Source: a virus. Taken from it: a DNA stretch of 30,151 nt. The notes under the pieces were generated by a model. That model saw nothing but the letters and a program-made list of their open reading frames with translations, made no database searches and was not told the origin of the DNA. The stretch spans positions 1-30,151 of IMG/VR virus record IMGVR_UViG_3300025030_000336. The stretch is one strand, 5' to 3'. Position 1 is the stretch's first letter. The number at the start of each line of letters is the position of its first letter. A program made the translations under genes and the position numbers. Positions 1,838 to 24,847 of this stretch are shown here, in pieces.

Positions 1838-2334
1838 TGCGGGCGAAGTGGCGCGCCTTCGTGGACGAATACTTCCGGTTGAACATGAACGGGACGCGGG
1901 CATACAAAGCCGTCTATGGCGTGGAAGATGACAACGCGGCTGCTGCTCACGCAAGCCGTCTGGTAAGGAATGGTAAGGTTGCAGCCGAAATTGAAAATCG
2001 ATTGAAAGCAAAACAGATGGCCGCCGAAGAAGTCTTGGCACGCATAGCAGAGCAGGCCCGCGGCGAATACTCCCCTTACTTTGATGATGACGGGCGGGTG
2101 AACGTTGCCAACATCGTCAAGGACGGCAAGGCGCATCTAATCAAGAAGATCAAGACCCGCACAGTCGTAGACGGCGATGAATTGACCTACGTTGACAAAG
2201 TGGAGTTCTACGACTCCCAATCCGCCCTGAGAGACCTGGCCCGCGTTCACGGGCTGTTCAAGGATCAGGTTGAGCACTCAGGCGACATCCGCATTTTGGT
2301 GGAGTATGAAGACGCTGACCCTGAAGCTACCTAG
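1837..2334 (+). CDS. terS: Terminase small subunit
   Basis: This 165-residue protein directly precedes the terminase large subunit and shows the small-terminase pattern: an N-terminal DNA-binding region with FVDEYFRLNMNGTRAYKAVYG, then ASRLVRNGKVAAEIENRL, as in the Terminase_2 family. A C-terminal part probably mediates oligomerisation and contact with TerL. It recognises the phage genome for packaging. ATG 1837 is chosen because it overlaps the preceding stop (TAATG) and matches the family's N-terminus; longer in-frame extensions upstream read as shadow of the previous gene. It overlaps terL by 29 bases. Confidence 0.85.
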   Translation: MRAKWRAFVDEYFRLNMNGTRAYKAVYGVEDDNAAAAHASRLVRNGKVAAEIENRLKAKQMAAEEVLARIAEQARGEYSPYFDDDGRVNVANIVKDGKAHLIKKIKTRTVVDGDELTYVDKVEFYDSQSALRDLARVHGLFKDQVEHSGDIRILVEYEDADPEAT

Positions 2335-3589
2335 ACCGCACCCGGCACAGGCGCAGGTGCTCGACGAGCGCAAGCGGTTCAACGTGCTCAACTGCGGGCG
2401 GCGCTTTGGAAAGACCACGATGGGTATTGACTTGCTGGCCGCGCCGATGCTTCTAGCGGGCAAGCCGGTTGCCTTCTACTCACCGACCTATAAGATGCTG
2501 AGTGACGTGTGGCGGGATTTCAAACGAAGCTTCTCGCCCGTGATTGCAAATAAAAGCGAGCAGGAACACCGCATCGAACTTATTACGGGCGGTACCCTGG
2601 ATATGTGGAGCCTGGAAGACCCGGACAGCAGCCGCGGCCGCAAGTATGCCCGCATCTTTATTGACGAGGCTGCCAAGGTGAGAAAGTTGGAAGAGGCCTG
2701 GACGCAGGTCATCCGCCCAACCCTGGCAGACTACGCCGGGGATGCGTTCTTTGCAAGCACCCCAAAGGGGCTTAACTACTTCTTCATCCTGTGGCAGCGG
2801 GCAGATGATAGCGAAGACTGGGCGCGCTGGCAGTTCCCGACAGCCGCCAATCCTTACATCCGGCGGTCGGAGATTGTTGCTATGAAGGCTGAGTTGCCGG
2901 AGCGCGTTTACCTGCAAGAGATCCTGGCTGAGTTCATCGCAGACGGTACTTATTTCCAGGGTGTAGATAAGGCCGCGGTGATCGAGCAGCCAGGCCAGCC
3001 AGACCAACATTCTGGCCACCACATCGTTATGGGGATCGACTGGGCGCTGCATCAGGACTATACCGTTTTGACGGTCGTATGCCGGGAATGTAACCGTGTT
3101 GTGGATTGGGAACGGTTCAACCAGATTGACTTCACTTACCAACGGGAGCGGGTATGGGGTATGGCAAAACGGTGGCATGTGCGTGGTGTGCTTCCCGAGC
3201 GCAACTCGATTGGCGAGCCGAACATGGAATTATTACAGGAGCACATACCACTGCTGTCGGGTCCGGATGAAAAGCCGGGTTTCAATACCACATCCAGCAC
3301 GAAGCCGGGGCTTATCCAAGGATTGGCGGCGGCGCTTGAGCACGAAGGATTCAAGGTTCCGAAAGACTACGGAGACGAGCTGCGCGCTTACGAAGTCGAA
3401 ATGCTGATAAATGGACATCCGAAATTCGGCGCACCGGAAGGCCAGCACGACGACCGGGTGATCTCGCTGGCGCTGGCATGGTACGCGCTGGGGCGCTATT
3501 CTCCCTTACCATCACAGCCTATCCAGCGCAGCAAGTGGACACAGGGCAGCGTAGAAACCGGCGAAGAGAGCCGGTGGCATAAGTTTTAG
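2306..3589 (+). CDS. terL: Terminase large subunit (packaging ATPase/nuclease)
   Basis: 427 residues. The ATPase half has a Walker A motif CGRRFGKTT (about residues 30-38) and a Walker B motif RIFIDEAAK (D120, E121). A STPKG coupling segment follows. The nuclease half has GIDWALHQDYT (catalytic Asp), ERNSIGEPN and the C-terminal HDDRVISLALA acid motif, the order seen in terminase large subunits with an RNase H-fold nuclease. It pumps DNA into the prohead and cuts the concatemer. ATG 2306 with GGTGGAG upstream is preferred over an earlier in-frame codon at 2270. The portal gene follows after 8 bases. Confidence 0.95.
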   Translation: MKTLTLKLPRPHPAQAQVLDERKRFNVLNCGRRFGKTTMGIDLLAAPMLLAGKPVAFYSPTYKMLSDVWRDFKRSFSPVIANKSEQEHRIELITGGTLDMWSLEDPDSSRGRKYARIFIDEAAKVRKLEEAWTQVIRPTLADYAGDAFFASTPKGLNYFFILWQRADDSEDWARWQFPTAANPYIRRSEIVAMKAELPERVYLQEILAEFIADGTYFQGVDKAAVIEQPGQPDQHSGHHIVMGIDWALHQDYTVLTVVCRECNRVVDWERFNQIDFTYQRERVWGMAKRWHVRGVLPERNSIGEPNMELLQEHIPLLSGPDEKPGFNTTSSTKPGLIQGLAAALEHEGFKVPKDYGDELRAYEVEMLINGHPKFGAPEGQHDDRVISLALAWYALGRYSPLPSQPIQRSKWTQGSVETGEESRWHKF

Positions 3590-3597
3590 AGGGCATC

Positions 3598-5052
3598 ATG
3601 GCAATTACAGGCGAAATTGGAAGCAGCGGGCTTTTAGCGTGGTCGGGGATCATCCAGGAAGACTTCCTGACCGAACTCCAGGGCAAGCGCGGGTACAAGG
3701 CTTACCGCGAAATGGCCTTGAACGAGCCGGTCATCGGCGCGTTACTCCTGGCAATCGAGCACGCCATCCGGGGCGTTACATGGACGTTTGCGAGCGATAA
3801 AGGCGAAGAAGACCCGCGGCTGGAACTCTTGAAAGAAGCCAAGGAGAACCTGAGCCATTCGTGGAACGATCACATCGTAGAAGCCCTGTCCATGCTGCCG
3901 TTCGGTTACAGCTTCTTCGAGATCGTCTATGAGCGGATGGATAGCAAGATGTTGTGGCGCAAGTTCGCCGTCAGGGGCCAGGACACGCTCTACAAGTGGG
4001 AGATCGATGATACCGGCGGGCTGGCGGCCTTCGTCCAGCAGTCACCGCCCAAGTACCAGACCGTGACCATCCCCATCGAGAAATGCCTGCTCTACCGCAC
4101 GCGTCTTGAGCGCGGCAACCCGGAAGGGCGCTCGATACTCAGGACGGCGTATAAGGCTTATTACTATCTCAAGAACATCCAGGCCATCGAAGCCATCGGG
4201 ATCGAGCGGGACCTGGCCGGCCTGCCAATGATCCGCCTGCCGGAAGGGGCAACTACGGGTAGCGCGGCGGATACCGATAGCAGCGTTGCGGAGAAGGTGG
4301 TAAGGAACGTCCGCAACGACGAGCAGTCGGGCATTGTACTGAAGCCAGGCTGGGAGTTCGAGTTACTCTCGACCGGCGGCACCCGCCAGTTCGACACAGA
4401 CAAGATCATCAGCCGGTACGAGTCCCGAATCCTGATGAGTTCGCTCGCCCAATTCCTGATGCTGGGACAGGAAGGGGTTGGGAGCCTGGCCCTATCCCGT
4501 GACTCGACCGACTTCTTCACGATGTCGGTAAACGCCACGGCGGACATCATCGGCGAGACGTTCACCAAGTACGCCATCCCGCGCCTGTTGAAGCTGAACG
4601 GCCAGGACCCGGACGGGATCAGGCTGGAGCACTCGCCCGCCGGTGACGTGGACATCGAGAAGATCAGCGACTTCCTGCAGAAGGTGGGCGGTAACTTCCT
4701 GACCTGGACGGCGCAGGACGAGACCTGGCTGCGGGGTGCGGCTGGGCTGCCTGAACTGGACGAAGAAGAGATCGAAGCCGAGCGGGAGCGCAAGCAGGCA
4801 GTCGCATTAGAGATCGCACGGTCCGGGCCGCAGCAGCCAGGCGAAGCGCCGGGACGGGGGTCGCAAGACCAGCCTCCAACCCGTCCCGGCCAGCCTGGGA
4901 AACTGGGCGCTGAATTGTACTTCGCGCAGAACGCACCGGATGACGAAGAGCGGCGGCTGTGGGAACTGCGTTATGAGCGGTTGATGAAGGCGTATCTCGA
5001 CAAGGCAAAGAAGCGCGTGCTGAAAGAAGCCAGGAAACTCAAGAATGTCTGA
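3598..5052 (+). CDS. Portal protein, DUF935 / Mu gp29-like
   Basis: This 484-residue protein lies between terL and the Mu F-like gene, the standard place for the portal. The sequence has the DUF935 (Mu gp29) pattern: an N-terminal KRGYKAYREMALNEPVIGALL, a central EGRSILRTAYKAYYYLKN and AIGIERDLAGLPMI, then SRYESRILMSSLAQFLMLGQ. The portal is the dodecameric channel at the capsid vertex through which DNA enters and to which the neck attaches. The tail from about residue 395 is Pro/Gly/Gln-rich and then highly charged (LDKAKKRVLKEARKLKN), probably a flexible extension. It overlaps the next gene by 8 bases. Confidence 0.92.
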   Translation: MAITGEIGSSGLLAWSGIIQEDFLTELQGKRGYKAYREMALNEPVIGALLLAIEHAIRGVTWTFASDKGEEDPRLELLKEAKENLSHSWNDHIVEALSMLPFGYSFFEIVYERMDSKMLWRKFAVRGQDTLYKWEIDDTGGLAAFVQQSPPKYQTVTIPIEKCLLYRTRLERGNPEGRSILRTAYKAYYYLKNIQAIEAIGIERDLAGLPMIRLPEGATTGSAADTDSSVAEKVVRNVRNDEQSGIVLKPGWEFELLSTGGTRQFDTDKIISRYESRILMSSLAQFLMLGQEGVGSLALSRDSTDFFTMSVNATADIIGETFTKYAIPRLLKLNGQDPDGIRLEHSPAGDVDIEKISDFLQKVGGNFLTWTAQDETWLRGAAGLPELDEEEIEAERERKQAVALEIARSGPQQPGEAPGRGSQDQPPTRPGQPGKLGAELYFAQNAPDDEERRLWELRYERLMKAYLDKAKKRVLKEARKLKNV

Positions 5053-8636: not shown

Positions 8637-9581
8637 ATGACACTCCCAACCAAAAACGATGTGCAGGCGGTTAGTCCTGTTCTCACCAACATGCTTCTGG
8701 CGTACAAGAACGCGGACAGCCGCTTCGTGGCCGGGAAAGTATTCCCGTCCATCCCTGTCGAGAAAGACAGCGGGACCTACTACCTACTGACCAAGAAATA
8801 CTGGTTCCTTGACCTGCTGGAACGGCGCGCTCCCGGCGACGAGTTCGGGCGCGTGGGCTACGGGGTCGAGACAGCTACCTATGCCGCCGCTACCTGGGGC
8901 ATCGAGCACAAGATCGCCGACGAGATCCGGGCCAATAACCAGGTTCCGATGGCGCTCGAACAGGTCGGGCTTCAGTTCCTTTCCAACATGTCCCTGATCC
9001 GCAAGGAACGGGCATTCGCGGCAGACTTCATGGCTGCATCGGTCTGGACTACCCAGGACAACGACGCCACGACCGACTGGGACGATTATTCCGCGGGCGA
9101 TCCGCTGGCGGATCTTCGTACCGGCAAGCGCGGCATCTCCCAACTGACCGGGATGACGCCGAATACGCTCGTCGTGGGCGAGATCGTGGACGACGCCCTG
9201 GTGATCCATCCCGACATCATCGACCGGATCAAGTACACCCGTGCAGCCACGACCGGGGCAATGGAAGGCGCCCTGGCCGAAGTGCTGGGCACGAACTACC
9301 TGGTAGCAACGGCCATCTACAACAGCGCCGATGAAGGCCAGTCCGGTACCTATGCAGCCATCATCGACGACGACGCCCTGCTGCTGCACGTTGCACCGGG
9401 CGCGGACATGATGACCGCAAGCGCTGGCAAGACGTTTGTGTGGAATGGCGGCGGCGGAGACGGGCAGATCGTATCCTACCGCGACCAGTCGCACAAGTCC
9501 GATATTCTCCAATTGTCCGAGGCGTGGGACCAGAAAGTGACCGCTGCGGATTTAGGAGCGATCTGGCTTGGGGTAGTCTAA
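8637..9581 (+). CDS. Major capsid protein (HK97-fold)
   Basis: 314 residues directly after the decoration gene, the standard capsid position. It opens with MTLPTKNDVQAVSPVLTNML, has a KVFPSIPVEKDSGTYY segment (N-arm and first strands) and an IEHKIADEIRANNQ helix. A long spine-helix part, LEQVGLQFLSNMSLIRKERAFA, follows, and then TPNTLVVGEIVDDALVIHPDIIDRI, the A-domain region of this capsid group. Size and pattern fit HK97-fold capsids of Mu E-like or related type. A purine-rich ribosome site (GAGGTGATG) precedes the ATG. It builds the icosahedral shell together with scaffold and protease. Confidence 0.88.
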   Translation: MTLPTKNDVQAVSPVLTNMLLAYKNADSRFVAGKVFPSIPVEKDSGTYYLLTKKYWFLDLLERRAPGDEFGRVGYGVETATYAAATWGIEHKIADEIRANNQVPMALEQVGLQFLSNMSLIRKERAFAADFMAASVWTTQDNDATTDWDDYSAGDPLADLRTGKRGISQLTGMTPNTLVVGEIVDDALVIHPDIIDRIKYTRAATTGAMEGALAEVLGTNYLVATAIYNSADEGQSGTYAAIIDDDALLLHVAPGADMMTASAGKTFVWNGGGGDGQIVSYRDQSHKSDILQLSEAWDQKVTAADLGAIWLGVV

Positions 9582-9593
9582 GGAGGCTGAGTC

Positions 9594-10040
9594 ATGGCTA
9601 GACCACAGAACAGCTTCAAGGGACTGTTTGCCAAGAGCCGGGTTGACGTTGGATCGCAGCAAGTTACCTACAACTCGACCGCGCTGATCCTGTCGGGCGG
9701 CGTTCGCATCTCCGACAAAGCGGGCGGGCAGCTCACGGCTAACTCGACGGCTGTTATCCTGCCTGGTGGGGTGAAGATTTCCAACAAATCCACCGGGCAA
9801 TTGACAGCCAACTCGACCGGAGTCGTGTTCCCGGCGAAATTGCGCCTGGGAGCAACGAAGTACGTCGGGGCGAACTCGACCGGCTACACCTTCACCGCCG
9901 GGGCCGCTGTACCGTCTACACGGACAGCCGGCTACAACTGGACTTTCATCACGAACAGCACGGGCGTTTCCGGTATTGCCCTGCGCACGACCGGGACCAC
10001 CTGGAAGTTCGTCAACGTGACGACCGTCCTGCCTACGTAA
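9594..10040 (+). CDS. Repeat-containing virion-type protein, N-x-S/T-rich
   Basis: 148 residues with a very strong AAGGAGG ribosome site, so probably abundant. Five NST motifs (Asn 27, 50, 73, 94, 121) start successive repeats. The first two are near copies of 23 residues (NSTA-IL-GGV-IS-K--GQLTA). NKS (64), NWT (115) and NVT (141) bring the N-x-S/T total to eight. The predicted structure is all beta. The place straight after the capsid gene suggests a second decoration or head-fibre protein. I do not recognise the family. A glycosylation gene island starts about 400 bases downstream, which makes these sequons notable. Confidence 0.7.
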   Translation: MARPQNSFKGLFAKSRVDVGSQQVTYNSTALILSGGVRISDKAGGQLTANSTAVILPGGVKISNKSTGQLTANSTGVVFPAKLRLGATKYVGANSTGYTFTAGAAVPSTRTAGYNWTFITNSTGVSGIALRTTGTTWKFVNVTTVLPT

Positions 10041-10046
10041 ATAATA

Positions 10047-10156
10047 GCGCCTGGATAGGCTCCGGGGCCGAAAAGGGCCGCTCCCGCCCCTGCCAGGCGC
10101 ACTTCGGGAGCGGAATTGCCAAAGGCAATTCTTGAGCATTCGGCTTTGCCGAATGC
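10047..10156 (+). repeat. Cluster of inverted repeats after the capsid genes
   Basis: This gene-free stretch holds four perfect inverted repeats: GCGCCTGG (10047-10054) with CCAGGCGC (10093-10100); CCGCTCCCG (10078-10086) with CGGGAGCGG (10105-10113); GAATTGCC-AAA-GGCAATTC (10113-10131); and GCATTCGGC-TTT-GCCGAATGC (10136-10156). The 3' arm of the first lies in the loop of the second, so they form a pseudoknot or compete. No U-tract follows, so this may be an RNA stabiliser, processing site or Rho-type attenuator that sets capsid mRNA above downstream mRNA. Confidence 0.6.
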
Positions 10157-10177
10157 CAGTGTACTACGGGAGGGTAC

Positions 10178-10456
10178 ATGACTGCCAAATTCAATACTCA
10201 TGCGCTTCTGTGCCAGGGCTATTCGGTCAGCGTGCACCATGACGAATTGATTTCTATCAATGTCGATTTCGTCATGCAAGTTCCGGGTAGAGCTGATTCA
10301 GAGACCCTTATGGAAGCATTACACAATATTGGCATCTTCCTGAATAGCGGAAAAGTCAATCTTGTGAAGGCAACCGATAAGATGCGCTGTTTTCATTGCG
10401 GCGTTCTGGCAGGTGACGATGATCGAACCTGTACCCAATGCGGGGCACCGCTATGA
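10178..10456 (+). CDS. Hypothetical protein with C-terminal zinc ribbon
   Basis: 92 residues. Residues 1-68 are unrecognised, with alternating strands (GYSVSVHHDELISINVDFVM) and a helix (ETLMEALHNIGIFLN). The end is a clear zinc ribbon, CFHCGVLAGDDDRTCTQCG. GGGAGGGT lies just upstream of ATG 10178. Its stop overlaps the first glycosyltransferase start (ATGA), so it heads the glycan island. Its role there is unknown. Confidence 0.6.
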   Translation: MTAKFNTHALLCQGYSVSVHHDELISINVDFVMQVPGRADSETLMEALHNIGIFLNSGKVNLVKATDKMRCFHCGVLAGDDDRTCTQCGAPL

Positions 10457-11346
10457 AGCAGAAAGAGTACACCGGCACGGTTTACGTCGGCGTGGTGGGC
10501 GGTGATACGGAGAGCGGGGAGTGCCGGGACAGCATCGAGAAAATCTACCTGCGCCCCGGCGATGAAGGACCGATCTTCTACCGCGCCACCAAGGGCTATG
10601 AAGCCCGCCAACTGCACCTTAACAACTGGATAGAGAAGATCGTACACCCTTTTATGTTGTTGCTCGATCACGACATGGTGTTCCCGGTGGACGTGTTGGA
10701 GCGGCTGAGGGCGCATAAGCTGCCGTTTGTGTCAGGGTATTACCTGCGGCGGCGCTATGCGCCCCTGGCTCCGGTCTGGTTCAAACTGCCGCCGAAGCAC
10801 GCCTGGCCGATGGAGCCTTGGCTGGATGAACCGGAACGGGGCAAGTTGCACCCGCTGGGAGCGTCGGGCTGGGGCTGTATGCTCCTTCACCGGGATGTGG
10901 TCATGACGACAAAGCCCTTACTGAAAGGCGAGCAGGAAATACTCGAAGACGACCTGGACGTGTGGCCCTACGACTTGCCCGCAGTGCTGGAAGCCATGCG
11001 CGGCCTGCGCTGGCTGGCGGATACCGAAGCAGAAAGCCCCGCCACCTTGCAAAAGGCCGTCACCCCGTTCGTGGAAATACTGGAGCGGGAGATCCGGCCC
11101 CTGCGTGGGCGCAAAGACATCGTAGGCAGTGACATCCGTTACCCGTTCTACGCCAGGGAAGCGGGCTACGTCCTGATGGGCGACCCAGATTGTCGTTGCA
11201 AGCACATGCTGGACTATCCCCTATCACCTGACGATTTCAGCGATATGCCCCCGGATGCTCGGGAAAACATCTACAAAGAAATGCACCAGAAGATTGGAAT
11301 ACTCAGGCGTGAGCAGCGGCAGGTAGTAGAAAGGCTGGGAGCATGA
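10453..11346 (+). CDS. Glycosyltransferase family 2-like (GT-A fold)
   Basis: 297 residues from ATG 10453, which overlaps the previous stop (ATGA). It has a DxD-type metal/nucleotide-sugar site in LLLDHDMVFP (D72-H-D74), preceded by a helix ARQLHLNNWI. The segment FVSGYYLRRRYAPLAPVWFK and the later GASGWGCMLLHRDVV are typical of phage and bacterial GT2-like proteins. A charged insertion (about residues 155-215) is followed by YPFYAREAGYVLMGDPDCRCKH, the usual acceptor-side end. It should transfer a sugar from a nucleotide donor in the cytoplasm. Donor and acceptor cannot be told from sequence. It is the first enzyme of the coupled glycan island. Confidence 0.75.
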   Translation: MKQKEYTGTVYVGVVGGDTESGECRDSIEKIYLRPGDEGPIFYRATKGYEARQLHLNNWIEKIVHPFMLLLDHDMVFPVDVLERLRAHKLPFVSGYYLRRRYAPLAPVWFKLPPKHAWPMEPWLDEPERGKLHPLGASGWGCMLLHRDVVMTTKPLLKGEQEILEDDLDVWPYDLPAVLEAMRGLRWLADTEAESPATLQKAVTPFVEILEREIRPLRGRKDIVGSDIRYPFYAREAGYVLMGDPDCRCKHMLDYPLSPDDFSDMPPDARENIYKEMHQKIGILRREQRQVVERLGA

Positions 11347-11573
11347 GCAACAAAGATTATGCAACCGTTGTTTTTTGGGCACTTGATTTTTTACGTGCGG
11401 CCCACGAACATGGAAAATTTCGGCGCTGGCTTATCAGGCTGTCTTTAGGAAGATACGCATTTCGGGAGATGATGGGGATGCACGAAACCCTGGCAAAGAT
11501 GGGATATGACCCTGATTTGGAATACGGCATCGAAGGCTGCGAGTACCACAAAGAGAAAGTTGAGTGGAAATGA
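11343..11573 (+). CDS. Small hypothetical protein in the glycan island
   Basis: 76 residues, starting MSNKDYATVVFWALDFLRAA. It appears mostly helical and basic in its middle (HGKFRRWLIRLSLGRYAFREM). No motif or family recognised. Both ends overlap neighbours as ATGA junctions (11343-11346 and 11570-11573), so it is translated as part of the island. It may be a partner of one of the flanking glycosyltransferases, but nothing in the sequence shows this. Confidence 0.55.
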   Translation: MSNKDYATVVFWALDFLRAAHEHGKFRRWLIRLSLGRYAFREMMGMHETLAKMGYDPDLEYGIEGCEYHKEKVEWK

Positions 11574-12430
11574 CAGTCCTTTTCATTACCGTAGGCGGTG
11601 AAAGTTGGGCATCGGCCCGCATCCGCGGTTACTGGCCTGCTCGCTACATGGATGCGCGGGTAGTCACGACCGAAGAAGGGAGCAAGAATGGGCTAGACCT
11701 GGAAGGTGTGGATGTGGTGATCTGGCAGAAAACCGCCTCCATCGAACTAATCCGGTCTACACCCAACATCCGCCACTTCTGGGACGTGTGCGATCCGGTC
11801 TGGTGGTGGGCGCCGGAAGCGAGCAAGGAGATCGCTCAGGCTGTCGCGGGCATAGTTGCATCCAATACCGCCTTGGCTAAAGAGTTTGGCGAGTGGTCTG
11901 GGCTGCCCTGTAACGTAATCCCCGACAGACTAGAACTATCCCACTTTTCCGCACTGCGAGAACACCACGACTCTGCCCCGACTCGCCTAATCTGGTTTGG
12001 ACTGTACGGGAACCGACCGGCTCTGTTTGGCGCCCTGGCGAACCTGGAACGGCTGGCAGCAAACGGCCGCGACATTGAATTGACCATCTGTGACGAGCGC
12101 CCGGAATTACCGCTCAACATCACCAAGTTTTTTCCGGTTTACCACGTCCGCTGGGAACTGGAGCAGGAAAACGCCATCATTGCTGCGCATGACATTGCAA
12201 TCCTGCCGCCCTACCCCGGTTCATGGGGGCGGGTGAAGAGCAATAACCGGATATTGACCGCATGGGCCTGCGGCCTGCCCGCAACGGACTGCGAGAGCTA
12301 CAAAGAACTTGAACAGATGATGGACTCCAACACCCGCGCCAGGCTTGGCCGGGACGGGCGCAAGTTGGTTGAACAGGATTACAACGTCGAGCGATCGGCG
12401 CGGGAGTGGGAAGAGTTGCTGAGTGTTTGA
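11570..12430 (+). CDS. GT-B glycosyltransferase (GT4-like)
   Basis: 286 residues from ATG 11570 (ATGA overlap); a GTG two codons earlier is less likely. The layout is that of a compact GT-B enzyme. The N-terminal half has VLFITVGGESWASARIRG and IVASNTALAKEFGEW ending in a CNVIPDRLE hinge. The C-terminal half has LIWFGLYGNRPALFGALANLERLA, then HDIAILPPYPGSWGRVKSNN and RILTAWACGLPATDCESYKEL, the nucleotide-sugar site with a Glu at the usual EX7E-like place. Such proteins use UDP- or GDP-sugars. It differs in fold from its neighbours at 10453 and 12914, so the island makes more than one linkage type. Confidence 0.75.
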   Translation: MTVLFITVGGESWASARIRGYWPARYMDARVVTTEEGSKNGLDLEGVDVVIWQKTASIELIRSTPNIRHFWDVCDPVWWWAPEASKEIAQAVAGIVASNTALAKEFGEWSGLPCNVIPDRLELSHFSALREHHDSAPTRLIWFGLYGNRPALFGALANLERLAANGRDIELTICDERPELPLNITKFFPVYHVRWELEQENAIIAAHDIAILPPYPGSWGRVKSNNRILTAWACGLPATDCESYKELEQMMDSNTRARLGRDGRKLVEQDYNVERSAREWEELLSV

Positions 12431-12917
12431 GTATTTGAAGCCCTTCACCCGCGTGATCGTCACCGGTCCGCAAAGGTCAGGAACGCGCATCTGTGCAAAG
12501 ATGATCTCCGCGGATACAGGCCTGCGCTATGTAGACGAACAGGATATCGCCGTCGACAGCCTGTATGCCCTTGCGCACATGCTCACGGAAGGCGACGTGG
12601 TTATTCAATGCCCTGCCCTGTCTTATTGGGCCTGGGCGGTCGGGACGGTTGACGATGTGGCCGTGGTGCTTATGCGACGCCCGGTGGTAGACATCATTGC
12701 CAGCCAGGAGCGCGTCGGATGGAAGTACGAATGGTTGGAGTTGATGCGCTACGGGGCGGCAAGCGGTCCGATTGCGGAAGTCAAGTACAGGTTTTGGGAT
12801 GAAACGAAGGACAGGATCAAGCACCCCTTCGAAGTGGAGTACGAGAGCTTGAAGGCTCACCCGCTATGGATCAAAGAGCGGGCAGGCTTTAGCTACGACC
12901 AGACGGAGGCCGTATGA
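12423..12917 (+). CDS. Sulfotransferase-like P-loop protein
   Basis: 164 residues from GTG 12423. It opens with VIVTGPQRSGTRICAKMI. The PxRSGT loop is the 5'-phosphosulfate binding loop of PAPS-dependent sulfotransferases rather than a classical Walker A (no GKT/S). A central VVLMRRPVVDIIASQ resembles the 3'-phosphate box (RxPxxxxxS). The protein is shorter than typical sulfotransferases (about 250-300 residues) and may be a minimal form, or another P-loop transferase or kinase. Its position between two glycosyltransferases suggests that it modifies the same glycan. It overlaps both neighbours. Confidence 0.6.
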   Translation: MFEYLKPFTRVIVTGPQRSGTRICAKMISADTGLRYVDEQDIAVDSLYALAHMLTEGDVVIQCPALSYWAWAVGTVDDVAVVLMRRPVVDIIASQERVGWKYEWLELMRYGAASGPIAEVKYRFWDETKDRIKHPFEVEYESLKAHPLWIKERAGFSYDQTEAV

Positions 12918-13651
12918 CCGTCAAATGGGTGTGCGGGTCGAATGAGCGTTACCTTCCCAAGATGGGCGCCTTCCTGCGCTCACTTGACGAACATTGCCCC
13001 TTTGAGCTGTGGTACGTGCCAGTTGGATTTGATACCGAACCGTTCAAGCGAGTGCAGGCTACCGCGCTCACTAAAGATCAGAACGCGGGCGCGCCGCCTG
13101 AAACTGAGTGTATCCAGCACGGTTCATTCCTGCAGGTGATACCGGGAAATGATGACGATATTCTGATCTACTCGGATGGCGACATGATCATGCAGCGCTC
13201 GCCCAGCACGGGAGAGATCGACTGGCTAGAGAACTTCCCCGATGGCATGGTTAGCGCAGGCTGGAACAGCGGGCCGGGCGAGACGTTGATGGACGAGGCG
13301 ACCCGCCTACATCCGAAAATCACTCCCTGGGATACGCTGAAGATATGGAGCACGCACATCTTGCACCTGAACTGCTTCAACGTTGGGGTACTGGTGGCAA
13401 GGCGCTCGACCTGGCAGCGGATTTACGACGCCTACATAGAACGCTGGGAGAAGATAAGCGCCACATTCGAGCACCAGGGCCGCCAGCAGTGGTTGATCTG
13501 CTACTGCTTCCACCTGCTGCAGCTCCAGATCCACGTCATGCCCTACACCTTCCACACCCACGGTCATTACCAGATACCGGACGGGGTTGAAGAGATCGGT
13601 GGCCTGATCTGCTACAAGGGCGAGCCGGTTTTGCTGAGACATCGAATATGA
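12914..13651 (+). CDS. Glycosyltransferase, GT8-like
   Basis: 245 residues from ATG 12914 (ATGA overlap). It starts VKWVCGSNERYLPKMGAFLRSL, a GT-A type entry, and has a metal-binding DxD in YSDGDMIM (D88-G-D90). HLNCFNVGVLVARRSTW and EHQGRQQWLI (the conserved Asn/Gly and Gln positions) follow, and the end is FHTHGHYQ with a catalytic-side His. This order matches GT8-like retaining transferases that use UDP-sugars. The enzyme should act in the cytoplasm on the same acceptor or glycan as its neighbours. Family assignment is by pattern and could be another GT-A family. Confidence 0.7.
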   Translation: MTVKWVCGSNERYLPKMGAFLRSLDEHCPFELWYVPVGFDTEPFKRVQATALTKDQNAGAPPETECIQHGSFLQVIPGNDDDILIYSDGDMIMQRSPSTGEIDWLENFPDGMVSAGWNSGPGETLMDEATRLHPKITPWDTLKIWSTHILHLNCFNVGVLVARRSTWQRIYDAYIERWEKISATFEHQGRQQWLICYCFHLLQLQIHVMPYTFHTHGHYQIPDGVEEIGGLICYKGEPVLLRHRI

Positions 13652-14229
13652 TTGACTTCTTTTTCGATCCCGCCGCGCCGGTCCAGCCCGACCAATACCA
13701 GACGGAGTTCAATTGCCTGCTGAAATATTACGAGCAGCTTGCCCCCCGACGGGTACTGGAGATCGGGGTCAGGGAGGGTGGCAGCCTGTACCAGTGGATC
13801 AAGCGCAAACCTGAACTCGTGGTAGCAGTAGATGACGGCGGGATGTTACGTTGGGGCAATGATGGCAAGATCGACCCCGGCAAGTGGCAGGAGTGGGCGG
13901 ATTACTACGGCGTGAAACTGGTAGCGGTGATGGGCGATAGCCACGATCCACGCATCCGTCTGAAGGTCGCTGAACATAAGCCATTTGATTTTATCTTCAT
14001 CGATGGCGACCACTTAGCGGGCGGGGTAGAGCAGGACTTGAGCGATTATCTGCCGATGGTTCGACTCGGCGGCATCGCCGTGCTACACGACATCCTTCCT
14101 GATTACAGTGATCCTGGCATTGGCGTCTGGCAAGCCTGGGAGCGGTTACGGGAGAGCGGCGCGCTTTTGCGGGAGTTGTACCAGCATGAGAACCAGGGCA
14201 ACCGCGGGATCGGGATGATTTATGTATGA
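13648..14229 (+). CDS. SAM-dependent methyltransferase (class I)
   Basis: 193 residues with a Methyltransf_24 / cephalosporin-hydroxylase-like Rossmann pattern. It has VLEIGVREGGSLYQWI (motif I, SAM-binding), LVVAVDDGG (acid loop), FDFIFIDGDHLAGGVEQDL (motif with metal-binding Asp and His) and LGGIAVLHDILP. Relatives in glycan clusters O-methylate sugars. It begins at the ATGA overlap with the GT8-like gene and ends overlapping the mutase by 8 bases, so it belongs to the same unit. Methylation of the phage glycan is the likely but unproven role. Confidence 0.75.
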   Translation: MIDFFFDPAAPVQPDQYQTEFNCLLKYYEQLAPRRVLEIGVREGGSLYQWIKRKPELVVAVDDGGMLRWGNDGKIDPGKWQEWADYYGVKLVAVMGDSHDPRIRLKVAEHKPFDFIFIDGDHLAGGVEQDLSDYLPMVRLGGIAVLHDILPDYSDPGIGVWQAWERLRESGALLRELYQHENQGNRGIGMIYV

Positions 14230-15283
14230 CTTCCTGATCGTCGGGGCCGGGTTGTTCGGATCGGTGTGCGCCCGCGAGTTGTCAGACAATGGCAAGCGGG
14301 TATTAGTGATCGAGCGGCGCAAGCACATCGCCGGCAACTGCTATGACGAAACGGTGGAAGGGATACGCGCTAACCTGTACGGCGGGCACATCTTCCACAC
14401 CAAGAGCAAGCGGATTTGGGATTATGCCAGCCGATTCACTACCTGGCGGCAGTATGAGCACCGGGTGAAGTCCTTTACCAACCGCAGAGTGTATTCGTTC
14501 CCGGTCAATTTGATGACCTTGCACCAGATATACGGTATCACCACCGAAGAGCAGGCGCGTGCGCTGATGGAGCAGCCGAAGGTAAGACAGTACCTTTTCG
14601 AGACGTTCTTCGACGGTTACACCCGCAAGCAGTGGGGCAGGGCGCCGGAAGACGTTCCAGGCGGCGTCATTGACCGCATCCCTTACCGGCTTACGTGGGA
14701 TGATAGATACTTCGACGATCCTTACCAGGGCTTGCCAGAAGATGGATACACGGCCTGGATTGGGCGCATACTGGAAGGTGTGCCAGTACTGAAGGAAGCA
14801 GACTACCTGTTGGATCGGGATGCCTGGGATCGGGAAGCAAAGCAAATGATCTACTCCGGGGCGCTTGATGAACTGTATCACAATGAGTACGGACGTCTGG
14901 AGTATCGGAGCCTGAAATTCGAGATGTTGAAAGTTGATCGGGAAACCTACCAGGGCTGCGCGACGATGAATTACCCGGAGATCGAAGTACCCTGGACACG
15001 GATCATGGAGTGGAAATGCTTCAATCCTGCGCAAGTGGCGCATACGCTCATTACCAGGGAATATCCGCTCGCACATGAACCAGGTGATGCTAAGCGAAGC
15101 GGCACGATACCGTATTACCCGGTCAGGACCGACTTGAACGTCAAGAAGTACCAGCAGTACCGGGAGCGGGCAGAGAGCGAAGGGCTGATCGTAGGCGGCA
15201 GGTTGGGAAGTTACCAATACCTGAATATGGACCAGACAATCGGGCAAGCGCTGGCTTTAGCAAATCGAGAATTAAATGCCTGA
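14222..15283 (+). CDS. glf: UDP-galactopyranose mutase
   Basis: 353 residues with the full bacterial Glf layout and length. FLIVGAGLFGSVCARELS (FAD-binding GxGxxG at residues 8-13) is followed by VLVIERRKHIAGNCYD, GGHIFHTKSKRIWDY, FFDGYTRKQWG, PYRLTWDDRYFDDPYQGLPEDGYT (cut here for clarity) and the C-terminal GRLGSYQYLNMDQTI. The enzyme is a flavoprotein that interconverts UDP-galactopyranose and UDP-galactofuranose by a covalent flavin-sugar adduct. It needs reduced FAD. A phage gene of this kind in a late operon implies a galactofuranose-containing product, used by the neighbouring transferases. It overlaps both neighbours by 8 bases. The protein family is certain; its substrate route in this host is inferred. 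Confidence 0.95.
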   Translation: MYDFLIVGAGLFGSVCARELSDNGKRVLVIERRKHIAGNCYDETVEGIRANLYGGHIFHTKSKRIWDYASRFTTWRQYEHRVKSFTNRRVYSFPVNLMTLHQIYGITTEEQARALMEQPKVRQYLFETFFDGYTRKQWGRAPEDVPGGVIDRIPYRLTWDDRYFDDPYQGLPEDGYTAWIGRILEGVPVLKEADYLLDRDAWDREAKQMIYSGALDELYHNEYGRLEYRSLKFEMLKVDRETYQGCATMNYPEIEVPWTRIMEWKCFNPAQVAHTLITREYPLAHEPGDAKRSGTIPYYPVRTDLNVKKYQQYRERAESEGLIVGGRLGSYQYLNMDQTIGQALALANRELNA

Positions 15284-15542
15284 GTATACCTACACCGACG
15301 AAGAAGGCCATACCGTGACGGTCACGCACCCCATGATCTACTCGACCGGGATTGTCTGCGTGGCCTGCGGTAGCGAGATGTGGCGCAAGCCGCAGGCGTT
15401 CACGGTGACGTGGGGCGGGCTGGCGCCCAGCCAGGGAGAAATGAGCAACCCTATCCGTCGGCACCTGGCCAGCGTGCCGGAGAAGCGGGACAAGTTCGCA
15501 GAGAAGCACGAAGAGCACGAAAGGAGAACGGCAACCGAATGA
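15276..15542 (+). CDS. Small FmdB-like zinc-ribbon protein
   Basis: 88 residues beginning MPEYTYTDEEGHTVTVTH, then VCVACGSEMWRKPQ. The start (MPxYxY and GH) and single CxxCG resemble FmdB-type regulatory zinc ribbons, but the first cysteine pair of that family is replaced by DEEGH, so zinc would need other ligands. The C-terminal third is basic and charged (EKRDKFAEKHEEHERR). It overlaps the mutase by 8 bases and the next gene by ATGA, closing the glycan island. Function unknown. Confidence 0.6.
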   Translation: MPEYTYTDEEGHTVTVTHPMIYSTGIVCVACGSEMWRKPQAFTVTWGGLAPSQGEMSNPIRRHLASVPEKRDKFAEKHEEHERRTATE

Positions 15543-16323: not shown

Positions 16324-16833
16324 ATGGCGATCCGGGCTGACAGCTATTCAAGCACGACCGAAGTCAAGGCATTCACCCGGCACCTGCTGGACGGGCAGAG
16401 CGCGTTCAACTCCACAACACGCCCAAACGCGACCGAACTTGAGAAGTTCATCGACCGGGCTTCCGGTGTACTGAACGCTGCACTAGCACAGTTCGGCCTT
16501 ACGACGCCCATCACCAACACCACGGCGAAACTCGCCTGTGATGATTTCGTGACTACCAAGGCGGCGCAGTACGTGGAGCTGACCCAGCGGGGCGCGGGCT
16601 TCAACGAAGGCGAGAACGAGCGGGGAAGTTCATTTCACGGGCTGTACGGCGCGGCGATCAAGTTCGTGGAAGATTACATGCTCGGCTTTCAAAACCTGGG
16701 CGTGGACGCTACCCATCCGGCCAGCCAGGGCGTTACGTTCACCGGCCTGACCATTCAAGAAGACCGCACCGACCAGGACGATACCAGCCTAGAGCAGCCC
16801 GTTTTCATCCGGCATAAATGGGATAACGTGTAA
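16324..16833 (+). CDS. Head-tail connector (adaptor) protein
   Basis: 169 residues. The helical start KAFTRHLLDGQSAFN, followed by LEKFIDRASGVLNAALAQFG and LACDDFVTTKAAQYVELTQRG, is the four-helix pattern of gp6/gp15-like adaptors that sit under the portal. The C-terminal part, with FTGLTIQEDRTDQDDT and FIRHKWDNV, is a beta-rich tail. It lies in the right place, after the head genes and before head-closure and tail genes. It overlaps the next start as TAATG. Family-level assignment by pattern. Confidence 0.65.
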   Translation: MAIRADSYSSTTEVKAFTRHLLDGQSAFNSTTRPNATELEKFIDRASGVLNAALAQFGLTTPITNTTAKLACDDFVTTKAAQYVELTQRGAGFNEGENERGSSFHGLYGAAIKFVEDYMLGFQNLGVDATHPASQGVTFTGLTIQEDRTDQDDTSLEQPVFIRHKWDNV

Positions 16834-24773: not shown

Positions 24774-24847
24774 AAGGGTGTCCTTATAACGGTGTCCTTG
24801 AGCGATTTTACCATTTTTATCAAGGGTGTCCTTATAACGGTGTCCTT
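24774..24847. repeat. Two 26-bp iterons next to the par genes (candidate centromere)
   Basis: The same 26-base unit occurs at 24774-24799 and 24822-24847, 48 bases apart. Each unit contains two direct copies of GGTGTCCTT 14 bases apart (24777-24785, 24791-24799; 24825-24833, 24839-24847). They lie just after the stop of the ribbon-helix-helix gene. Regular direct half-sites beside parA and an RHH gene are typical of type Ib centromeres or operators. Replication iterons are an alternative, but no initiator gene is visible. Confidence 0.65.

Follow-up and report, generated by a model that had tools for sequence, protein, structure and literature searches.

A late-operon gene cassette with a UDP-galactopyranose mutase that probably glycosylates a structural protein of a siphophage

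Background

Genes for sugar-modifying enzymes among the structural genes of a phage have a precedent. Mycobacteriophage Corndog (cluster O) encodes an O-methyltransferase, gp35, and glycosyltransferases (GTs), gp36-38, between its portal and protease genes, and the published account of these genes suspects a modified capsid on the basis of proteomics (PMC4351075). Virion glycans on capsid and tail tube are reported for Corndog, Che8 and Myrna by Freeman 2023, as that work is cited in PMC12363180 and PMC12619734. Here we present an analysis of the virus record IMGVR_UViG_3300025030_000336, whose 30,151 bases we call the window, and of a block of eight genes in it, A to H (10178-15283), which includes GT genes, a methyltransferase gene and a gene for UDP-galactopyranose mutase (UGM, or Glf). 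The likeness to Corndog is one of gene content, since in both the late structural operon includes several GT genes along with one for an O-methyltransferase. Corndog differs in that the site lies between portal and protease, and the account of those genes in PMC4351075 describes no UGM or RNA element there. Our best reading, by analogy, is that the mechanism in the window would have its precedent in Corndog virion glycosylation, here with a mobile module for galactofuranose (Galf) and methyl groups.

UGMs are found in other phages as well, namely T4-like phages of Aeromonas and Stenotrophomonas, Pootjesviridae of Rhizobium and Agrobacterium, and Rhodothermus phage RM378. These belong to the same enzyme family as the product of gene H, but in the four annotated isolate contexts viewed no annotated GT cassette or capsid gene adjoins them, and a literature search found no relevant report of a phage UGM within structural genes. 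The first-pass annotation of this DNA called such a block unusual. Taken as a claim of uniqueness this does not hold, since Corndog too has GT and methyltransferase genes in its structural operon (PMC4351075), and so do uncultured relatives found in this analysis. We believe the block is probably a late-expressed cytoplasmic glycosylation cassette that decorates a structural protein of the phage through UGM, GT and methylation steps. What is new here is the module of UGM, gene F and methyltransferase, a recurrent plug-in site in two capsid lineages, and an RNA at the boundary of the cassette.

The cassette and its enzymes

The block consists of eight co-oriented open reading frames (ORFs) on the strand of the late genes, and it lies between capsid-side genes and genes of the head-tail connector region (Table 1). 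With the ATG codons at 10453 (B) and 11570 (D) taken as the likelier starts, all eight junctions from A/B to H and the gene after it overlap, five by 4 bases (ATGA) and three by 8. A check of ORFs and junctions therefore bears out the coordinates, the gene order and the overlap coupling between capsid and connector genes given in the first-pass annotation. The base composition of the block (GC 0.55-0.58) is no different from that of its flanks (0.56-0.61). No membrane segment is predicted in the proteins of A to H (maximum 19-residue hydropathy at most 1.26), as expected for cytoplasmic protein glycosylation, and a Pfam search of the same proteins gave no match to a flippase family. Genes A and C gave no match to glycan enzymes in family searches; the ribbon of A is matched by a zinc ribbon in the first cassette ORF of L003, one of the related contigs, which we designate by L numbers.

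Table 1. Features of the cassette, of its 5' boundary and of the neighbouring late genes in the window
Feature	Position	Strand	Evidence or remark
Gene A, 92-aa protein, C-terminal zinc ribbon ending CGAPL	10178..10456	+	Zn_Ribbon_1 E 2e-5, just below cut-off
Gene B, GT-A-like glycosyltransferase (predicted), DHD motif	10453..11346	+	AF2 model and Foldseek
Gene C, 76-aa protein	11343..11573	+	no significant family match
Gene D, GT-B/GT4-like glycosyltransferase (predicted)	11570..12430	+	phrog_7162 glycosyltransferase E 3e-4 (sole family match)
Gene E, P-loop protein, possible small sulfotransferase	12423..12917	+	motifs GPQRSGT and RRPxxxxxS
Gene F, GT6-like GT-A glycosyltransferase (predicted), DGD motif	12914..13651	+	AF2 model and Foldseek
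Gene G, class I O-methyltransferase (Methyltransf_24)	13648..14229	+	PF13578 E 4e-9, above Pfam cut-off
Gene H, UDP-galactopyranose mutase (UGM)	14222..15283	+	TIGR00031, PF03275, PDB 1i8t E 2e-89
int-alpA-type structured RNA (RF02996)	10048..10111	+	37.4 bits, gathering 35.8
Three more hairpins	10113-10131, 10136-10156, 10159-10180	+	fold z-score -4.0 for 10038-10180
orf9594, 148-aa protein with NST repeats	9594..10040	+	candidate glycan acceptor or head decoration
Major capsid protein (phage_cap_E type)	8637..9581	+	phrog_1005 E 2e-63; left neighbour of cassette region
Zinc-ribbon-like protein, 88 aa, closes cassette	15276..15542	+	same-place homologue in L020, L129, L130, L131
Connector-region protein, conserved right boundary gene	16324..16833	+	homologues 36-48% in L020, L129, L130, L131

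The identity of H is the firmest point, and here the first-pass annotation was right to name a Glf. Judged from its sequence, membership in the UGM family is certain: the protein matches the NCBIfam equivalog TIGR00031 over its full length with 335 bits (cut-off 304) and PF03275 with 220 bits (cut-off 26; E 2e-65). Its closest solved structure is 1i8t, which we take to be the UGM of E. coli. For that enzyme we assume the active-site list W156, R170, Y181, R278, Y311, R340, Y346 and D348; seven of these eight checked residues are kept, E. coli D348 being N335 in H, and asparagine also stands at this column in aligned phage relatives of H. The conserved active-site residues of H are W138, R152, Y163, R229, R260, Y299, R327 and Y333. 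A tree of 44 UGMs joins the window with L002, L003, L004 and L005 in one clade (support 100/99) that stands apart from every sampled bacterial UGM. The UGM matches among 50,697 phage records are all below 60% identity, the best at 41%. The family phrog_9677 is labelled as of unknown function, yet H matches it at E 5e-102. Five Streptococcus phage records (MK359990, FN997652, MN270276, MN270279 and OP662531) carry glf at their extreme right end, where it may belong to adjoining host DNA and not to the phage.

Three glycosyltransferase types were proposed for the block at first, and they fare unequally: F as GT6-like and D as GT4-like are fairly supported, and B is GT-A-like at low model confidence, all three folds being predictions. 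The best Foldseek matches of B are Mimivirus R699, STIV A197, LH3 and COLGALT1 (E 7e-5 to 1e-3, TM 0.31-0.44); LH3 and COLGALT1 are protein (hydroxylysine) glycosyltransferases, a hint about the acceptor of B that is suggestive only. For F the AlphaFold2 (AF2) model, made from four sequences, has a pLDDT of 83, and all 50 of its 50 top Foldseek matches are GT6 enzymes, that is, ABO and alpha-1,3-galactosyltransferases (E from 2.7e-7, TM up to 0.58). F shares their predicted fold and the DxD motif, its DGD being invariant among aligned homologues. It is unlike them at about 10% identity and with no sequence-level family match: neither B nor F matched Pfam, and a profile search of PDB sequences with F gave chance matches only, so that it has no sequence-profile membership in GT6. 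A tblastn search with B, D, E and F in the 50,697 phage records found no match, and therefore no isolate relatives; no further loci came from pattern scans for D and E.

What F might do is suggested by its company. Homologues at 42-44% identity lie beside the UGM gene in L002 and L003, and another is present in the truncated L128. In the window, L003 and L002 the gene is directly upstream of the UGM gene, or of a methyltransferase and UGM, and it was not found in seven cassettes that lack a UGM (L142, L160/L168, L164/L170/L174, L129, L130/L131, L019/L020 and L049). Because of this association we infer that F is the best candidate for a galactofuranosyltransferase. The block had also been described as a complete route to a galactofuranose-containing decoration. 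This goes too far, since the window contains no gene for UDP-Gal epimerase (galE) and the block no proven galactofuranosyltransferase. The substrate of UGM is UDP-galactose; for want of an epimerase gene in the window, the host must supply this donor.

The methyltransferase named in the first-pass annotation is G. Its relatives in the PDB are 6g7d, the demethylmacrocin O-methyltransferase 8ia9, and 3ssm; we take 3ssm to be MycE and 6g7d to be a polysaccharide methyltransferase. G probably acts on a sugar hydroxyl because these relatives include macrolide-sugar O-methyltransferases. A homologue at 45% identity stands between F and the UGM gene in L003. Gene E is a harder case. Sulfotransferases have the motifs 5'-PSB RSGT and 3'-PB RxPxxxxxS, and the translation of E contains GPQRSGT and RRPVVDIIAS, which fit both. 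Its match to Sulfotransfer_3 falls below threshold (E 0.047; 14.4 bits against a cut-off of 27), and it has no Walker lysine. Searched against PDB sequences as a sulfotransferase, E found none, the matches being adenylate-kinase-like and due to chance. E is possibly a small sulfotransferase, which is unproven. Of the glycan-making block as first proposed, then, methylation and the supply of UDP-Galf are well supported, and sulfation is at the level of motifs.

Recurrence of the site in related phages

Looking for the same block at the same place in related phages, a check proposed with the first-pass annotation, showed that cassettes of GT and methyltransferase genes recur there many times. 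Five contigs with a related capsid (L019, L020, L129, L130 and L131, 51-54% identical to the major capsid protein of the window) carry GT genes between capsid and connector. In L129 these are a homologue of orf9594, B, and a fusion of GT4 with Methyltransf_24; in L130 and L131, near-copies of one another, B and a GT4; and in L019 and L020, copies of one another, B, D, a GT2 and a radical SAM protein. B is common to all five, standing after the major capsid gene at 47-52% identity, and it is the first shared cassette gene among phages with the related capsid. D is 48% identical to the gene after B in L019 and L020. The closing zinc-ribbon gene is present in each contig long enough to reach it.

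The same junction is also occupied in at least six contigs whose HK97-type capsid is unrelated. The cassette is GT4, GT2, F and UGM in L002; zinc ribbon, GT4, GT2, F, methyltransferase and UGM in L003; a GT4-FkbM fusion, GT2 and F up to the contig end in L128; GT4, GT2, a methyltransferase (MT24) and GT2 in L142; GT4-FkbM, a GIY-YIG-like ORF and a radical SAM protein in L160/L168; and GT4 with a nucleotide-sugar transferase in L164/L170, with L174 of the same group. Since the same arrangement occurs in contigs with non-homologous capsids, the cassette is a modular one, with parts that move among phages whose heads differ. Methyltransferases are a recurring part: besides G and its counterpart in L003 there are the GT4-methyltransferase fusions of L129 and L128 and the methyltransferases of L142 and L049. 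In L049 a GT4 and a methyltransferase lie between the tail terminator and the tail tube. L004 has a third late-operon site (2060-4456), where a UGM of the window clade, a methyltransferase and a DUF3431 protein stand between terL and portal. The radical SAM proteins in two of the cassettes (L020 3302-4369; L168 5578-6321) are possible agents of sugar or peptide chemistry. GTs might also be thought common to the whole of this capsid family. We rejected this view: among 46 more distant relatives, a Pfam scan of the ORFs (about 190-540 aa) in the 5 kb that follow the capsid gene found a GT in one, L049.

A structured RNA at the 5' boundary

The 137-base gap before gene A (10041-10177) contains an RNA of the int-alpA type. 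It has the three-helix fold of RF02996 and scores above the gathering cut-off, and the loop of its third hairpin pairs with the tail (CGCUCCC at 10079-10085 with GGGAGCG at 10106-10112) in a 7-bp pseudoknot. The first two of the hairpins that follow are perfect, and the loop of the third contains the ribosome-binding site of gene A; a hairpin around this Shine-Dalgarno sequence makes translational control possible. RF02996 is found in the same gap of L002 (1952-2013) and L003 (1500-1564) above the cut-off, and of L128 (3965-4028) just below it. In all, eight distinct glycan cassettes have the RNA at their start (window, L002, L003, L128, L142, L160, L164 and L049). The copy in L049 (13514-13596) sits with its GT4 and methyltransferase at the different site before the tail tube, so here RNA and cassette moved together. 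The corresponding gap of the B-bearing L129, L130 and L019 contains a strong hairpin of another kind.

A pattern scan of viral contigs found the RNA in 45 contigs. RF02996 matched 40 of 43 further records at E <= 1e-3, 28 of them above the cut-off, and none of 14 control genomes. A covariance model built from four loci found 26 aligned matches; in this alignment, which is fitted to the model, the covariation score is 0.66 against 0.15 for shuffled and at most 0.13 for slid alignments, with 91.8% of cells paired. The longest match between loop and tail averages 5.6 bp over 25 distinct loci, against 4.5 with permuted tails, and none of 2000 permutations was as high. Two simple explanations of the RNA were dropped. 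It does not belong to the capsid genes, given that RNA, GT4 and methyltransferase occur together before the tail tube in L049, and it does not belong to glycan cassettes only, as most of 30 distinct loci adjoin other phage genes (head, tail, primase). Because most instances adjoin such genes, we regard it as a general phage element that the cassettes use. The name int-alpA refers to an RNA between integrase and alpA; unlike that, copies of the window type lie in late operons, before glycan cassettes or beside other phage genes. A role in expression in cis seems plausible, and if this is right an orphan RNA family now has a context, as a regulator that separates abundant structural genes from those downstream.

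What the cassette may do

We propose the following mechanism. During late transcription the phage would make its capsid proteins and, from the genes that lie beyond the RNA, soluble enzymes of glycan synthesis in smaller amounts. Being placed after the capsid genes, the cassette would be expressed together with them, and the RNA on its 5' side probably reduces this expression, or sets its timing, with respect to the capsid. In the cytoplasm, B, D and F would assemble a short glycan on a structural protein. B, the conserved GT, perhaps starts the chain on the protein, and D and F would extend it. UGM would convert host UDP-galactopyranose to UDP-galactofuranose for one of the GTs, most likely F. 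G would methylate a sugar and may cap the chain, and E may sulfate the glycan. The product would be short, methylated and probably Galf-containing. Since cassette contents are swapped between phages, the coat chemistry would change and the site would stay.

Two proteins stand out as possible acceptors. The product of orf9594 has 8 N-x-S/T sites where 2.2 would be expected (0 of 2000 shuffles), a count inflated by an internal repeat, and the NST repeats are kept in the 41% identical homologue of L129. The major tail protein, with 5 sequons against 2.2 expected, is another candidate.

Several points weigh against virion decoration by this cassette. The virion glycan and its acceptor are predictions from the genes. 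No Galf transferase was identified in the block by sequence, the AF2 model of B has a low pLDDT of 61, and L004 has its UGM without F, with the DUF3431 protein and methyltransferase instead. The orf9594 gene is absent from the B-bearing L130, L131 and L019, which weakens the idea that it is an obligate acceptor. The window record may also be a fragment, so that early genes, including any for lysogeny or DNA modification, may be missing from it.

We still prefer decoration of the virion to modification of the host surface or of DNA because no membrane segment was found in the block, and no integrase or resolvase and no thymidylate-synthase-type hydroxymethylase in 16 records, which may be fragments. 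The alternative that survives best is that host polysaccharide is the target, changed by the enzymes in the course of infection or lysogeny so that superinfection is blocked, in the manner of serotype-converting morons. Loci for cell-surface polysaccharides typically contain UGM and GT genes, and in the annotated contexts viewed T4-like and Rhizobium/Agrobacterium phages do not have their UGM among the head genes. We consider it unlikely all the same. Unlike a gtrABC moron, the block encodes neither a membrane protein nor a flippase nor a lipid-linked GT. Searches with positive controls revealed no recombinase of the tyrosine or serine type in the window and 15 related records, which may be fragments. 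The cassette is coupled by overlaps to late genes, and cassettes occur repeatedly at structural operon sites in unrelated phages. A moron expressed in lysogens, the alternative that the first-pass annotation had set against its own proposal, is disfavoured on these grounds.

Ranked after it, and improbable too in our opinion, is the idea that the acceptor is a lipid or small molecule, or a receptor-binding structure of the tail instead of the head, the capsid-side position being a mere insertion hot-spot. The cassettes after the tail terminator in L049 and between terL and portal in L004 mean that the site does not point to one acceptor, and the sequons of the major tail protein would fit as well. 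Most of the cassettes found nevertheless adjoin capsid or decoration genes, and no lipid-carrier enzyme is present. The least likely alternative, and a quite implausible one, is that the GTs decorate a modified base of the phage DNA against restriction: DNA is indeed the substrate of many phage GTs (Pyle 2024, as cited in PMC12619734), a T4-like phage has a UGM gene near motA and a topoisomerase gene, and the window encodes an N6/N4 DNA methyltransferase, but the GTs lie among head genes and not replication genes, a sugar-type O-methyltransferase is a poor fit, no thymidylate-synthase-type hydroxymethylase was found in the window and the 15 related records although positive controls were detected, and TET/JBP was not found in a search without a positive control.

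Returning to decoration of the virion, a wider and more tentative generalization is possible, which we would not yet bet on. Small environmental siphophages might carry a mobile coat-chemistry module, made of a 5' regulatory RNA of the int-alpA type, with its loop-tail pseudoknot, and exchangeable GT and methyltransferase genes, at defined sites of the late operon; the branch of the window would make a methylated Galf virion glycan by means of a dedicated phage UGM and a new GT6-like galactofuranosyltransferase. If this is right, phages switch the sugar coat of the particle by cassette swap at a fixed place, a viral counterpart of capsule-type switching in bacteria. Masking of the particle or help in receptor contact, as suggested in the first-pass annotation, would be possible roles. 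It would bear on virion stability, adsorption and recognition, and the cassettes would be a source of new protein-glycosylating, possibly galactofuranosyl, enzymes.

Neighbouring genes

The late operon of the window is of the standard siphophage type on the + strand, with terminase, portal, MuF, protease/scaffold, cement and major capsid genes. On the 3' side of the cassette follow the zinc-ribbon gene, connector-region genes, the major tail protein (17299) and the tape measure (18276). An M14 zinc carboxypeptidase-like gene (441-1430) precedes the small terminase gene at the left end. The - strand encodes ParA, a T5orf172 protein and the N6/N4 DNA methyltransferase. Near the ParA gene (24774-24847) the 26-base sequence AAGGGTGTCCTTATAACGGTGTCCTT occurs in two exact copies, 48 bases apart, a pair that is possibly an operator or a partition site.

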